DNA from: a bacterium | GTDB taxonomy: Bacteria; JAJVIF01; JAGGVT01 | Direction of reading: 5' to 3' | NCBI GenBank assembly: GCA_021157815.1 | Contig: JAGGVT010000066.1 | Coordinates: forward strand, 1-49,301 | Length of the DNA stretch: 49,301 nt | In this document: in pieces, positions 7,724-23,469 of the stretch | How positions within the stretch are numbered: the first letter of the stretch is position 1 | Layout of the letters: every line of letters starts with the position of its first letter | Position numbers and translations under genes: made by a program | Notes under the pieces: model-generated | What the model was told of the DNA's origin: nothing | Databases searched by the model: none | The model's input: only the letters and a program-made list of their open reading frames with translations

Positions 7724-8473
7724 TTGATAAGTAAAACAAAAGTAATAAGAGATATTCTAATAATAATCGGATTGATTATTATTTTCGTGATTGCTGAAAA
7801 GGCGTTTTTCAAACGACAGCCGGATTCAACACCAGCAAATCCTCATCAAAATACGATGGGTGTTATGGGAACAATGGGAGCAGACCAATCCGGAGATGAA
7901 TCCTTTGATATTGATAATCCCCAAATCGCGATGAAAATTGATGGCAGGGAATATTCAATAGGTGAAATCGGCACTCATGCAAGAACCTATTATGTTATGA
8001 TGAATGGTGGAATTTCAGGACTGACAAAAACCGCCAAAACAATCGCGATAAAGCAGGCAATGAAGCGAATCCTTTCTGATGCCGCGATTATGAAAGGCGT
8101 TGAAGAATTCAATATTCACATATCAGAGGATGTAATCGAAAAGGAGATAGCTAACATAATTGAGGAGCAGGGTGGAAAAGAGAAATTCCAAGATTTTTTG
8201 GATGAATTCAATGTTACAGAGGATTCTCTAAGGAAACGCATTGGGAAAGATCTTGTTCAAAACGCATTAATGAACGCTGTAATCGACAAGCTTGATATTT
8301 CGGATGAATCCGAAGAAGCGCAGACTGAAGCTTTTAATGAATGGCTGAAAAATACTACTTTAACCCTTGAAGTCGCTATACTTGATCCTGAATTACTTGA
8401 GATTATCAAAGGGCAGCTATCGATGCCACATGATCAAATTCACGAACATTCTGATGAGATTTCTGAAAAATGA
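7724..8473 (+). CDS. Membrane-anchored SurA-N-like protein
   Basis: A 249-residue protein with TTG as start: GAGGAA at 7713-7718 lies six bases before it, and the nearby ATG at 7720 is followed at once by a stop. One transmembrane segment (about residues 8-24, ILIIIGLIIIFVIAEK) anchors it. A Met/Gly-rich linker follows, then a helical region (about 80-210) containing the SurA-N-like sequence KQAMKRILSDAAIMKGVEEF and an EEQGGKEKFQDFLDEFNV segment, typical of SurA/trigger-factor-like chaperone folds. No PPIase domain is present. Its stop overlaps the start of the glycosyltransferase gene by four bases (ATGA), so the two are translationally coupled. Confidence 0.7.
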   Translation: MISKTKVIRDILIIIGLIIIFVIAEKAFFKRQPDSTPANPHQNTMGVMGTMGADQSGDESFDIDNPQIAMKIDGREYSIGEIGTHARTYYVMMNGGISGLTKTAKTIAIKQAMKRILSDAAIMKGVEEFNIHISEDVIEKEIANIIEEQGGKEKFQDFLDEFNVTEDSLRKRIGKDLVQNALMNAVIDKLDISDESEEAQTEAFNEWLKNTTLTLEVAILDPELLEIIKGQLSMPHDQIHEHSDEISEK

Positions 8474-9600
8474 GAATTGCAGTACTCGGTCCGACATATC
8501 CAATCAAGGGTGGAATATCTCACTATACAACTCTGCTGGTTGAACATCTGAGAAAACGCCACGATGTCGATTTCCTGAGTTTCAAATATCAATATCCAAA
8601 ATTTCTCTATCCCGGAACAGGCCAGTTTGACTCAAGTGAAAAGACAATCGCAGTTGAAAACGAACGCATATTTCACTCATTGTGGCCTCCAAGCTGGAAC
8701 AGAATCGTTAAAAGAGTAATCGACAGCGATTGTGACCTTCTTATCACCGCCTGGTGGACTTATTTCTTCGCTCTTCAAAACGCGCTTATAAACTATCGTG
8801 TGCGTAAATCACATAAGCGTGTGATGTATATCTGCCATAATGTGAAGCAGCATGAGAACCGACCATTCGAATCTTCCTTTACCAATCTGGCTTTCCGCGA
8901 TGTTGATTATTTCATTGTCCACTCAACTGAGGACAGGGATAACCTTCTTAAGTATCGAGACGATGCAAACGTAAAGATTAACGTGCATCCAACGTACGAC
9001 CATTTTGCAAATATGTATGACGAATCGAAAATAGCCGAGATAAAATCGAAAAAGAAACCCAACACTGTGTTTTTTTTTGGAGTTGTCAGGCCATACAAGG
9101 GGCTTAAATATCTGGTCGAGTCTTTTCCTCTTGTATTAAAAGAGATTCCTGACGCGCATCTTTTAATTGTCGGTGATTTCTGGGAAAGTGAGGATGACTA
9201 CCGCAAGCTCATTAAGGAGCTTGGAATCACCAGTCGAACGGAACTGATTAACTCATACGTTCCCAATGAAAATGTCGGTGATTATTTCCATCTCGCGGAC
9301 TGCCTCGCGCTGCCATACACATCCGCGACACAAAGCGGAATTGTGCAGATATCATACGGATTCAATCTTCCGGTTATCGTTACGCGAGTTGGAGGCCTTC
9401 CTGAAGTTGTGGATGATGGCGCTACGGGCGCGATTGTCGAGCCTGAAAATTCTAATGCTCTTGCTGAGGGTATAATCAGAGTTTTGAAAAATCCAAATAG
9501 AGACAGCTATCCACAGAGGATCAAGGAATATAGCCGTAAATTCAGTTGGGATAACATGATTGATACGATAGAGAGTTTTTTTACTTCCGAAGTAAGTTAA
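8470..9600 (+). CDS. Glycosyltransferase, GT4 family
   Basis: A 376-residue GT-B-fold glycosyltransferase. The N-terminal PTYPIKGGISHYTTLLVEHL (about 9-28) is the acceptor-domain entry loop of GT4 enzymes. The C-terminal half has FFFGVVRPYKGLKYLVESF (about 200-218), the ALPY segment and the PVIVTRVGGLPEVV...G motif near 303-320, which binds the sugar-nucleotide. No membrane segment is seen, so it acts in the cytoplasm, probably at the membrane. The donor and acceptor are unknown. It is the third gene of an operon with two chaperone-like exported proteins, which points to assembly of a surface glycan or glycoprotein. The stop codon is immediately followed by an inserted miniature element. Confidence 0.88.
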   Translation: MRIAVLGPTYPIKGGISHYTTLLVEHLRKRHDVDFLSFKYQYPKFLYPGTGQFDSSEKTIAVENERIFHSLWPPSWNRIVKRVIDSDCDLLITAWWTYFFALQNALINYRVRKSHKRVMYICHNVKQHENRPFESSFTNLAFRDVDYFIVHSTEDRDNLLKYRDDANVKINVHPTYDHFANMYDESKIAEIKSKKKPNTVFFFGVVRPYKGLKYLVESFPLVLKEIPDAHLLIVGDFWESEDDYRKLIKELGITSRTELINSYVPNENVGDYFHLADCLALPYTSATQSGIVQISYGFNLPVIVTRVGGLPEVVDDGATGAIVEPENSNALAEGIIRVLKNPNRDSYPQRIKEYSRKFSWDNMIDTIESFFTSEVS

Positions 9601-9826
9601 TTTAAATGGCTCTTCAATAAACTGTGTGGGTTATTTGCACCCCCGTAAAAAAAGGGGCATTCCCCGATAACGGGGTACGTCCACATGAGACTTCAAATCT
9701 GATGTTATCAATATACTATGCTGTAACCCCTTATTTATACTGTGTTTATTCACTTGGTTGGGACATTCCCCTTTTTTTACTCAATCTAAACTCAACCCAC
9801 ACGATTTATTGAAGAGCCATTTAAAT
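9600..9826. mobile_element. MITE with 8-bp target-site duplication, ISL3-like ends
   Basis: The element occupies 9608-9818 (211 bp) with terminal inverted repeats of about 25 bp starting GGCTCTTCAATAAA and ending TTTATTGAAGAGCC. Both sides are flanked by an identical 8-bp ATTTAAAT (9600-9607 and 9819-9826). GGCTCTT termini with 8-bp duplications are the usual signature of the ISL3 family, from which it is probably derived. An inner inverted pair (GTAAAAAAAGGGG near 9647 and CCCCTTTTTTTAC near 9768) makes the whole element a hairpin. There is no transposase gene. The left duplication overlaps the last base of the glycosyltransferase stop codon. Confidence 0.85.
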
Positions 9827-9920
9827 ATTAATCCCGTGAACTTTAAGATCGCACATCCTGTACGTATGGGCGCCGCTTGTAAAGTGTCTCAGAACATCAT
9901 CAGAATATATATAGTTCGTC

Positions 9921-10074
9921 ATTCCCGCGAAAGGGACTGTTGAAAAACCTAATTATGTAGGGGCAGGTCTCTGTGCCTGCCTTTAGGTTTGCTGTAAATA
10001 CAGGGCAGCCACAAATGGCTGCCCCTACGGTTCGGGATAAAACAAGCTTTTTCAACAAGCCCGAAAGCGGAAAT
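9921..10074. mobile_element. Miniature element nested in an extragenic hairpin, copy 1
   Basis: A 128-bp insert (9934-10061) has ends GGACTGTTGAAAAA and TTTTTCAACAAGCC. It splits a hairpin repeat of the form ATTCCCGC-loop-GCGGGAAT: the left arm is 9921-9928 and the right arm 10067-10074, where it reads GCGGAAAT. CGAAAG occurs on both sides (9928-9933 and 10062-10067) as a 6-bp duplication. An uninterrupted hairpin lies nearby at 10173-10192. Copy 2, at 23314-23469, is in the opposite orientation. Confidence 0.8.
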
Positions 10075-10172
10075 CCAATTATTTCTTGAACCATACGCTA
10101 AATCATTTTGTACTCGTACATCCTCTTAAATAGAGTTGTTTCATAGTCAATGCTGGTTCAGAAGAAAAATGG

Positions 10173-10192
10173 ATTCCCGCTTTCGCGGGAAT
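10173..10192. repeat. Uninterrupted extragenic palindrome (REP-like)
   Basis: ATTCCCGC, loop TTTC, GCGGGAAT: a perfect 8-bp stem. It is the unoccupied form of the site that holds miniature elements at 9934, 23016 and 23328. Its outer flank (CGTCATTCCCGCG and a CAGGTCGAATAA block further out, read on the minus strand) is shared with the copy near 22975-23010, so the repeat unit is longer than the stem. Confidence 0.8.
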
Positions 10193-10258
10193 GACGTGTT
10201 ATTCTACCTGACGTATTATTCGACCTGTATAACCGTTCATACTAAAAGAGCTGTTTTG

Positions 10259-11656
10259 TCAGTTACCGCTGTGAACCTCAATATTCTCTCGAATGAAAAA
10301 CCAGCCAAATCCGCTTATAGTGCTTATAAACAGCGTCATAAACAGCAGCTTTAGAAAATTTGGTTCATCCTTTTTACTTGGCAAATACGCGCTATCAAGC
10401 ACGGCAAAAACCTTTTCCCCTTTATCCATGTAGCTTTCGCCAATCTCCTTAAGGTCTCTGAATTGATTAAGCATGGCTAATTTCGAAACCTTCTGTCTTT
10501 GAAGGTAAATAAACTCATTTTCAATTTCAGGCAGTTTATCCAGAAGCTCTTGAGTTTCTTTTTTGTGTTTCTCAAGCCATACAGCTTTTGCGGATTCAAC
10601 AGTCAGAGTTGCCAGAAGGTCCGACGCATAACCTTTTTCATTATCAGCGAGATGATGCATAAATAATTTCTTCGATATTTCAACCCTGTCCGACCAGTAT
10701 TTAAGTTGCGGAGTGTCCTCCTTATAAGTCATTTCGGCCTGCGCAAGATTAATGGAATCCCAGAAAAGGCGAGACATGATAACTGCGAGCATTGGATCAG
10801 ACATGACATCCAGGATTGAATATTGCATTTCATCTTTTTGAGAAACGCCGTAACTATCCATCACTTCAATTCGTTTTTGCGAATCGAACAACAACTCGCG
10901 GCTTGCAATCGCGCGGCTTTTTGCCTGTACCAGTTTTGATTCAGTTGTGTATAGATGTCCCATTATGCTGGACAGGTGATTAGCCGGTGCGATAATTCCA
11001 GATGATGATTTCAACTTCGCCTGTTTGGTTTCGATATCCAACAGTTCAATCTCAAGCTTTTTGATATTTTCACTTACCGCTTCGATTGGCTCCAGGTTGT
11101 TTACAAGACTGAGTTGATTGATAAAATCCGTGAAAAGGTCCGTATATCTGTTTACAATTGCCTTGGCAATCGCCGGTTCCACAAAGGTATATTCGATATT
11201 GTAATGCCCTGCCTCTCGGTCTAAAGAAACATCCAGATTCTTTGTAAACGCAAGCACGATTTCCTCTGATGACATACTGCCGTTATCGAAATGGTGACGG
11301 CATCCGACATCATCCATGATTTGAAAGACAGTGGTACGAGCATAAAAAAACGGTGTGAAATCGAAAGTTGATTTGTCCATCTGGTCATACAGGAAATTCC
11401 AGAACGGGTCACGCAGGCTTAGCGTTTGAGATTTCTCTCCTTCAGGAACGGGATATCTGCTCGGTAACGCGCCTTTTTTAAATGCAGTCCACGGTTTTCG
11501 TGTGTTTTCCATTATCACCAGCGACTGCGATTTATATCCCGGTGGGCTGATAAAATAAAACACGACGCTGAAAACAATCGCGCAACACCATATCACTACA
11601 AATTTCCACTTGTAGCGAATGAAGATTTCAATTATGCGCCGAATCTCATATCCCAT
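10259..11656 (-). CDS. Wzz-like polysaccharide chain-length determinant protein
   Basis: A 465-residue protein with the architecture of Wzz/PCP proteins: a cytoplasmic N-terminus, a first membrane helix (about 16-36), a large periplasmic part with extended coiled-coil helices (about 180-415) and a second membrane helix near the C-terminus (about 432-455, LLFMTLFISTISGFGWFFI). PCP proteins control the length of O-antigen, exopolysaccharide or capsule chains made by Wzx/Wzy systems. There is no C-terminal tyrosine kinase domain. It starts 12 bases after the acpS stop, so it is probably co-transcribed with acpS. No Wzx/Wzy genes are nearby; the only other glycan genes in the window are the GT4 gene at 8470 and the lone neuB. 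Confidence 0.75.
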   Translation of the reverse strand: MGYEIRRIIEIFIRYKWKFVVIWCCAIVFSVVFYFISPPGYKSQSLVIMENTRKPWTAFKKGALPSRYPVPEGEKSQTLSLRDPFWNFLYDQMDKSTFDFTPFFYARTTVFQIMDDVGCRHHFDNGSMSSEEIVLAFTKNLDVSLDREAGHYNIEYTFVEPAIAKAIVNRYTDLFTDFINQLSLVNNLEPIEAVSENIKKLEIELLDIETKQAKLKSSSGIIAPANHLSSIMGHLYTTESKLVQAKSRAIASRELLFDSQKRIEVMDSYGVSQKDEMQYSILDVMSDPMLAVIMSRLFWDSINLAQAEMTYKEDTPQLKYWSDRVEISKKLFMHHLADNEKGYASDLLATLTVESAKAVWLEKHKKETQELLDKLPEIENEFIYLQRQKVSKLAMLNQFRDLKEIGESYMDKGEKVFAVLDSAYLPSKKDEPNFLKLLFMTLFISTISGFGWFFIRENIEVHSGN

Positions 11657-22998: not shown

Positions 22999-23236
22999 CG
23001 TCATTCCCGCGAAATAGTCTGTCGGAAAAAGGGGTAGGTTTTAATGTAACCCGCAATGCCTTTATAAAAAAACATGAATCAATTCTGCAACGTTCGCAGG
23101 CATTCCGGGGTTGCGCATATCTACCCACTTCCCCGGCATGCCTGATTCACCTTGCAGTTAATTGTTGATTTTGTTCGGGACGGCATGACCGGGTTACGGT
23201 GTTAACAGGCTTTTTCAACAGGCTCGAAATCGGAAA
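22999..23236. mobile_element. Miniature element nested in an extragenic hairpin, copy 3 (divergent)
   Basis: A 209-bp insert (23016-23224) has ends AGTCTGTCGGAAAAA and TTTTTCAACAGGCT. It lies in the same hairpin loop as copies 1 and 2, flanked by a 6-bp CGAAAT duplication (23010-23015 and 23225-23230). The interior differs from the other copies and has its own inverted pair (TAACCCGCAATGCC against GGCATGACCGGGTTA). Confidence 0.7.
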
Positions 23237-23313: not shown

Positions 23314-23469
23314 GATTCCCGCTTTCGGGCTTGTTGAAAAAGCCTATTATATCCCATACCGTAGGGGCAACTCTCCGTGGTTGCCCTGTATTTATGCCAA
23401 TATTTAGGGTAGGCACAGAGACCTACCCCCTACATTCAGCCCTTTTTCAACAGCCTCTTTCGCGGGAAT
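23314..23469. mobile_element. Miniature element nested in an extragenic hairpin, copy 2
   Basis: A 129-bp insert (23328-23456), reverse orientation to copy 1 and clearly the same sequence along its whole length (shared blocks such as TAGGGGCA, CAGGGCA, CACAGAGACCT). It is flanked by CTTTCG (23322-23327 and 23457-23462) and enclosed by GATTCCCGC and GCGGGAAT arms. Confidence 0.8.

Follow-up and report, generated by a model that had tools for sequence, protein, structure and literature searches.

The window, meaning the whole stretch of 49,301 nucleotides analyzed here, carries an intact glycosyltransferase gene with a short repeat-bounded element directly behind its stop codon. The next downstream gene of fair length is convergent (10259-11656). 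The features at the junction are as follows.

8470-9600, + strand: intact host gene upstream of the element, encoding a group 1/family 4 glycosyltransferase (GT4) of 376 aa (PF00534, E 2.2e-29; PF13439, E 3.6e-9)
9600-9607, no strand: left target-site duplication ATTTAAAT, which overlaps the GT4 stop codon by one base (position 9600); the octamer length is backed by 46 family members
9608-9632, + strand: left terminal inverted repeat (TIR), GGCTCTTCAATAAACTGTGTGGGTT, for which a family consensus was also derived
9645-9665, + strand: left inner palindrome arm (GTAAAAAAAGGGGCATTCCCC), from the inverted-pair search
9666-9759, no strand: central region with no convincing gene, different in the third, more diverged element form
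9760-9780, - strand: right inner palindrome arm, part of a single long hairpin
9794-9818, - strand: right TIR, reading inward GGCTCTTCAATAAATCGTGTGGGTT, with 24/25 positions as in the ISL3 relic end from Nitrospirales
9819-9826, no strand: right target-site duplication ATTTAAAT

The initial annotation had described a complete miniature element with base-exact borders and a perfect 8-bp duplication, and both points hold: the element, GGCTCTT...AAGAGCC, measures 211 bp (9608-9818) and is flanked on either side by ATTTAAAT (9600-9607 and 9819-9826). Its 25-bp TIRs are identical at 23 of 25 positions. Together with the duplications they form inverted arms (9600-9632 and 9794-9826) that are 94% complementary across 33 nt, and the inner inverted pair (9645-9665 and 9760-9780) is 86% complementary across 21 nt. 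Taken alone, each strand of the whole element forms a single long hairpin, with energies of -74.9 and -80.4 kcal/mol and z values of -7.8 and -7.9. A 62-aa ORF at 9624-9812 was taken as a chance frame. Short, bounded by TIRs and with no plausible gene in its 211 bp, the element has the architecture of a MITE.

The GT4 stop codon, TAA, occupies 9598-9600. The duplication therefore begins on its last base, the first A of ATTTAAAT, and the protein encoded by the ORF at 8470-9600 is unchanged, as had been proposed. The octamer is AT-rich and, also as described earlier, palindromic; since only 2 of the 22 perfect octamers found in the family (see below) are palindromes, the palindrome at the GT4 site is incidental. 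An ISL3-type MITE has landed behind a sugar-transferase gene without damaging it, and it is one of several dozen copies.

The family was collected from the draft assembly of the same genome, which is fragmented (221 contigs, 3.2 Mb) and 90.88% complete. A blastn search with the element gave 141 first-look candidates, of which 40 places were scored (window copy included, matches of the element's own arms excluded). From 60 fetched stretches (124 kb) and the window, 46 paired elements of 189-221 bp were obtained, after one alternative pairing in stretch L088 was discarded. Their TIR consensus is GGCKCTTCAATAAATYGTGTGGGTT. Over the whole assembly, 63 + 59 = 122 TIR-like ends were counted at up to three mismatches versus 0 for the reversed pattern, and the family therefore comprises approximately 60 copies. 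Many contigs end in or beside copies of the element (e.g., in the fetched loci L067, L076, L080, L086 and L089, among others), as is expected where repeats break a short-read assembly, so that this count probably underestimates the real number of copies. Among 15 sequences, three element forms were distinguished: one of 211 bp, one of ~192 bp lacking 18 bp of the left inner arm (a stretch starting right after the A-run of the arm at 9645-9665), and one with a diverged center. The copy nearest to the window element is 98% identical to it; as about half of the paired copies also keep perfect duplications, the burst is not ancient.

The duplications themselves were assessed across the 46 paired elements. 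The two 8-bp flanks show no mismatch in 22 elements, one in 8, two in 4 and three or more in 12, i.e., at most one mismatch in 30/46, whereas among 2,070 control pairs, made by re-pairing flanks among the copies, only 0.14% were perfect and 1.7% had at most one mismatch. Flank identity is 33-36/46 at each of positions -1 to -8 and drops to 8/46 at position -9, and the duplication is therefore exactly 8 bp long. The 22 perfect octamers have an A+T content of 89%, versus 56% in the flanks. It might be argued that a palindrome came to be flanked by AT-rich octamers by accident or through misassembly, given that ATTTAAAT is itself AT-rich and palindromic and that the genome is a fragmented draft of 221 contigs. 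Such an artefact is refuted by the genome-wide family, by the 46 paired copies with independent flanks and by the re-paired control, and we consider it extremely unlikely. For the 12 elements with no recognizable duplication (at least three mismatches), recombinational swapping of duplications was considered as a source, and only one exact match was found in all comparisons.

Two empty sites, each with a single target copy, were identified in the same genome for other copies of the family. One of them lies within the window:

23025-23133, + strand: empty-site relative of the L056 insertion site, not part of the element, with the single octamer AGGTTTTA versus AGATTTTA

Across the joint, the L056 locus, in which AGATTTTA stands on either side of the element, is 91% identical to this stretch over 109 bp. 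In the second case, L046 and L032 are 89% identical across 84 bp without gaps, and the octamer is present once. Both are copies that inserted in other repeats whose unfilled relatives persist. As befits a MITE, the family offers many copies with duplications (46 paired, 22 perfect) as well as empty target sites, these being two in number, paralogous and for copies other than that of the window. Since the exact 8-bp duplications differ in sequence from copy to copy and the empty sites carry one copy, the 8-bp duplication was produced by insertion, into AT-rich DNA.

The copies are mainly intergenic. Counted after removal of the element and one duplication, 41/46 lie outside ORFs of at least 80 aa; sites within ORFs number 5 at this threshold and drop to 3 and 2 when it is raised to 100 and 150 aa. 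The intergenic share of octamers with at least seven A/T in this window is 24%, and a binomial test against this background, which comes from the window alone, gave 6e-19 (entered conservatively as 40/46 instead of 41). There is also a bias toward gene ends: 20 of 47 stop sides versus 5 of 42 start sides lie within 30 nt of the nearest ORF end (unverified ORF calls of at least 80 aa; Fisher p 0.002). The gene next to the MITE in L055 and in L045 now terminates at a stop codon that lies in the MITE's terminal repeat, and the last residues of its protein have been replaced.

This placement, together with the long hairpin (z close to -8 for either strand), is what could be expected of a functional intergenic repeat, such as a terminator, a small RNA or a protein-binding hairpin, that selection copied behind genes without any transposition, the octamers being a by-product. 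We regard this as very improbable. Exact duplications of differing sequence and single-copy empty sites demand insertion, no terminator-like site was called over the window element, and AT-rich targets combined with selection against insertions near starts also account for the stop-side bias. As a sole explanation it is refuted by the empty sites, while a secondary role may remain. The placement fits AT-rich targeting plus purifying selection, with no function required.

The same intergenic region also holds a member of a second miniature family, at 9933-10062; elements of this family measure 130-131 bp, and the window has another at 23327-23457 and a probable diverged copy ending at 23225. 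Its ends, GGGGCTGTTGAAAAA, occur 123 times exactly in the genome, and 111 ends (up to three mismatches) stand immediately behind ATTCCCGC(GAAA/TTTC). The copies sit at the centers of palindromes: the flanking arms are complementary at 8 or more of 10 positions in 18/25 cases versus 62/5,000 random pairs, and the four bases GAAA or TTTC are repeated at the break in 11 of 20 fetched copies. The targets belong mostly to one repeat family, so that the cases are non-independent; L165, L168 and L171 represent different palindromes. The landing site is a REP-like palindrome, CGTCATTCCCGCGAAAGCGGGAATCCATTTTTCTT, found at 9917-9933 and 10162-10196 of the window and elsewhere in the genome. The behavior resembles the inverted-repeat targeting reported for IS1272 (PMC5678879) and the insertion of IS elements into REPs (PMC1525189), and this second family is more unusual than the ISL3-like MITE. 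The ISL3-like MITE of L046 lies inside a longer repeat that starts with CGTCATTCCCGCGAAAGCGGGAATCCATTTTTCTT, and in L056 (880-1430; G000:C43) an ISL3-like MITE is nested in a second-family copy, which gives the relative order of both insertions there.

Turning to the source of the MITE, the initial annotation had linked its GGCTCTT ends and 8-bp duplications to the ISL3 family and suggested looking in the genome for an ISL3 transposase with matching ends. None was found there by any of the three queries used. Neither the ISL3 DDE domain (PF01610) nor the ISL3 zinc ribbon (PF14690) was detected in the 91%-complete assembly, in searches that were positive in control genomes, and a relic protein gave no match to the assembly in a search run with no positive control. 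A full-length partner was also sought from the ends. Inspection covered the first 100 entries of a list of 149 places, all 87 of a second list and the unpaired ends in the fetched stretches, and among these no TIR-like end bounded a transposase gene. Convincing unpaired ends run on into the interior of the MITE or reach contig ends. The divergent end of L085, examined as a candidate partner, belongs to an old MITE-like copy cut by the contig end, with no transposase. This genome thus yielded no autonomous ISL3 element sharing the MITE's ends; a partner of this kind usually accompanies a MITE but is not indispensable.

Outside the genome, matching ends were found next to remains of ISL3 genes. 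PF01610 is present in 5 of 40 genomes (own included), and the sole case from a same-class genome, a C-terminal ISL3 remnant (L023), has no matching ends. A loose TIR pattern run over the genome_contigs collection returned 24 stretches. Three of these, from the Nitrospirales MAG RBC_NOB5 (L100, L103 and L112; two of the relics recur as L140 and L141), read GGCTCTTCAAAAAATCGTGTGGGTTGA, which is 24/25 of the MITE TIR. Both ends could be placed in two of the relics, giving lengths of 983 and 988 bp and duplications of 8/8 and 7/8, and the third leaves its stretch. They contain broken ISL3 transposases (PF13542, E 2e-11; PF14690, E 3.9e-10; PF01610, down to E 1.1e-13), whose reading frames are interrupted and whose copies contain stops. 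The match to the MITE is confined to one end, the opposite one reaching 16/25. In a fourth stretch (L123, from a Nitrospirae MAG), a related end adjoins an ISL3 C-terminus, and the remaining 20 of the 24 gave no ISL3 match. At 5 of 9 plasmid ISL3 loci (L125, L126, L127, L129 and L132), GG(C/T)T-type ends were seen together with perfect 8-bp duplications; L130 has a weak 7/8 pair, and no pair was resolved in L124, L128 and L131. The MITE therefore shares with ISL3 insertion sequences both the GG(C/T)TCTTC-type ends, present in the RBC_NOB5 relics and in published ends, and an AT-rich 8-bp duplication, of the same length as at the plasmid loci. As no resident ISL3 transposase was found, the proposed ISL3 link rests on the 24/25 relic ends in another organism and on the parallel from Microcystis (PMC11448079), which support it.

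The preferred reading, to which we assign a probability of roughly 0.88, is that of a 211-bp MITE that kept only the ends needed by an ISL3-family transposase and was mobilized in trans. ISL3 is the best-supported source. We infer that an ISL3 enzyme did the mobilization, its gene having since been lost, being unassembled or having been brought by a visiting element. Candidate families with 8-bp duplications also include IS1595, IS66, IS256 and ISAs1, and the MITE might have been moved by another transposase family that makes duplications of this length, the ISL3-like ends being coincidental, which would agree with an assembly that contains neither PF01610 nor PF14690. The terminal GGCTCTTC, the 24/25 identity to ISL3 relic ends and the published ISL3 MITE (PMC11448079) speak against such a coincidence, which is unlikely. 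Rather improbable, too, is a variant that treats the elements as an orphan family of ~60 hairpins, placed preferentially behind stop codons, at least two of them supplying the stop, with no resident transposase, and that has them either moved by a non-ISL3 enzyme or retained as a 3'-end module of their host genes.

With an ISL3 transposase as the mobilizing enzyme, the insertion at GT4 can be pictured as follows. The transposase, acting in trans, would bind the 25-bp terminal repeats and excise or copy the element. A staggered cut of 8 bp in AT-rich target DNA would then receive it, and gap repair would double ATTTAAAT. Landing between convergent genes, right behind the GT4 stop, the insertion would have been harmless and hence retained.

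Multiplication was seen in one genome. Among 40 genomes (own included), the body of the MITE was found in its own genome only, and the three nearest of the genomes examined, of the same class but other families, are all without the element. In 385 genomes (own included), the TIR at up to three mismatches gave, outside the own genome, one three-mismatch match (G359) with no element around it. A TIR pattern in which one position was two-fold and another free returned 0 stretches outside the own genome in genome_contigs, and a looser pattern returned 0 in viral_contigs. Under ISL3 and MITE search terms, no paper describing this particular family was found. The case provides a clean, base-exact burst of an ISL3-type MITE in a poorly sampled lineage, with empty sites within the same genome, and, after that of Microcystis, a second high-copy MITE with ISL3-type ends. 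Annotators of this assembly should also be aware that copies of the element account for some of its contig ends and short intergenic ORFs.

Neither the kind of element nor its ISL3 source is new, in view of three publications (PMC11448079, PMC6305408 and PMC10969869). The MITE of Microcystis aeruginosa PCC 7806 (187 bp, 31-33 identical copies, GGCTCTTCG-type ends, 8-nt duplications) was assigned to ISL3 through the matching ends of resident ISL3 elements (PMC11448079). It shares with the window family GGCTCTTC-type ends, 8-nt duplications, a mainly intergenic location and a stem-loop fold, and differs in having imperfect TIRs of 9 nt (versus 25) and resident ISL3 transposases; the two are likened by description only (PMC11448079). 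The RBC_NOB5 ISL3 relics resemble the window MITE in one end (24/25) and in their AT-rich 8-bp duplications, but they are 983-988 bp long, carry a broken ISL3 transposase and match at only 16/25 in the other end. ISArsp7, an ISL3-family element listed with GGCTCTTCGCGG at its ends and a repeat of 8 bp, likewise shares the GGCTCTTCGC... ends and the duplication length; unlike the MITE, it is 1,451 bp long, resides on Arthrobacter plasmids, encodes its own transposase and has a duplication, CCTTTGCC, that is not AT-rich (PMC6305408). Chunjie of Geobacter uraniireducens and QMITE2 of Coxiella differ in that the passages on them name no ISL3 link, the string 'isl3' being absent from the review; like the window family, they occur in dozens of mainly intergenic copies with size variants, and their duplications fade with age (PMC10969869). 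Intergenic placement, fading duplications and, for QMITE2, a location mainly in 3' untranslated regions are thus known for MITEs (PMC10969869).
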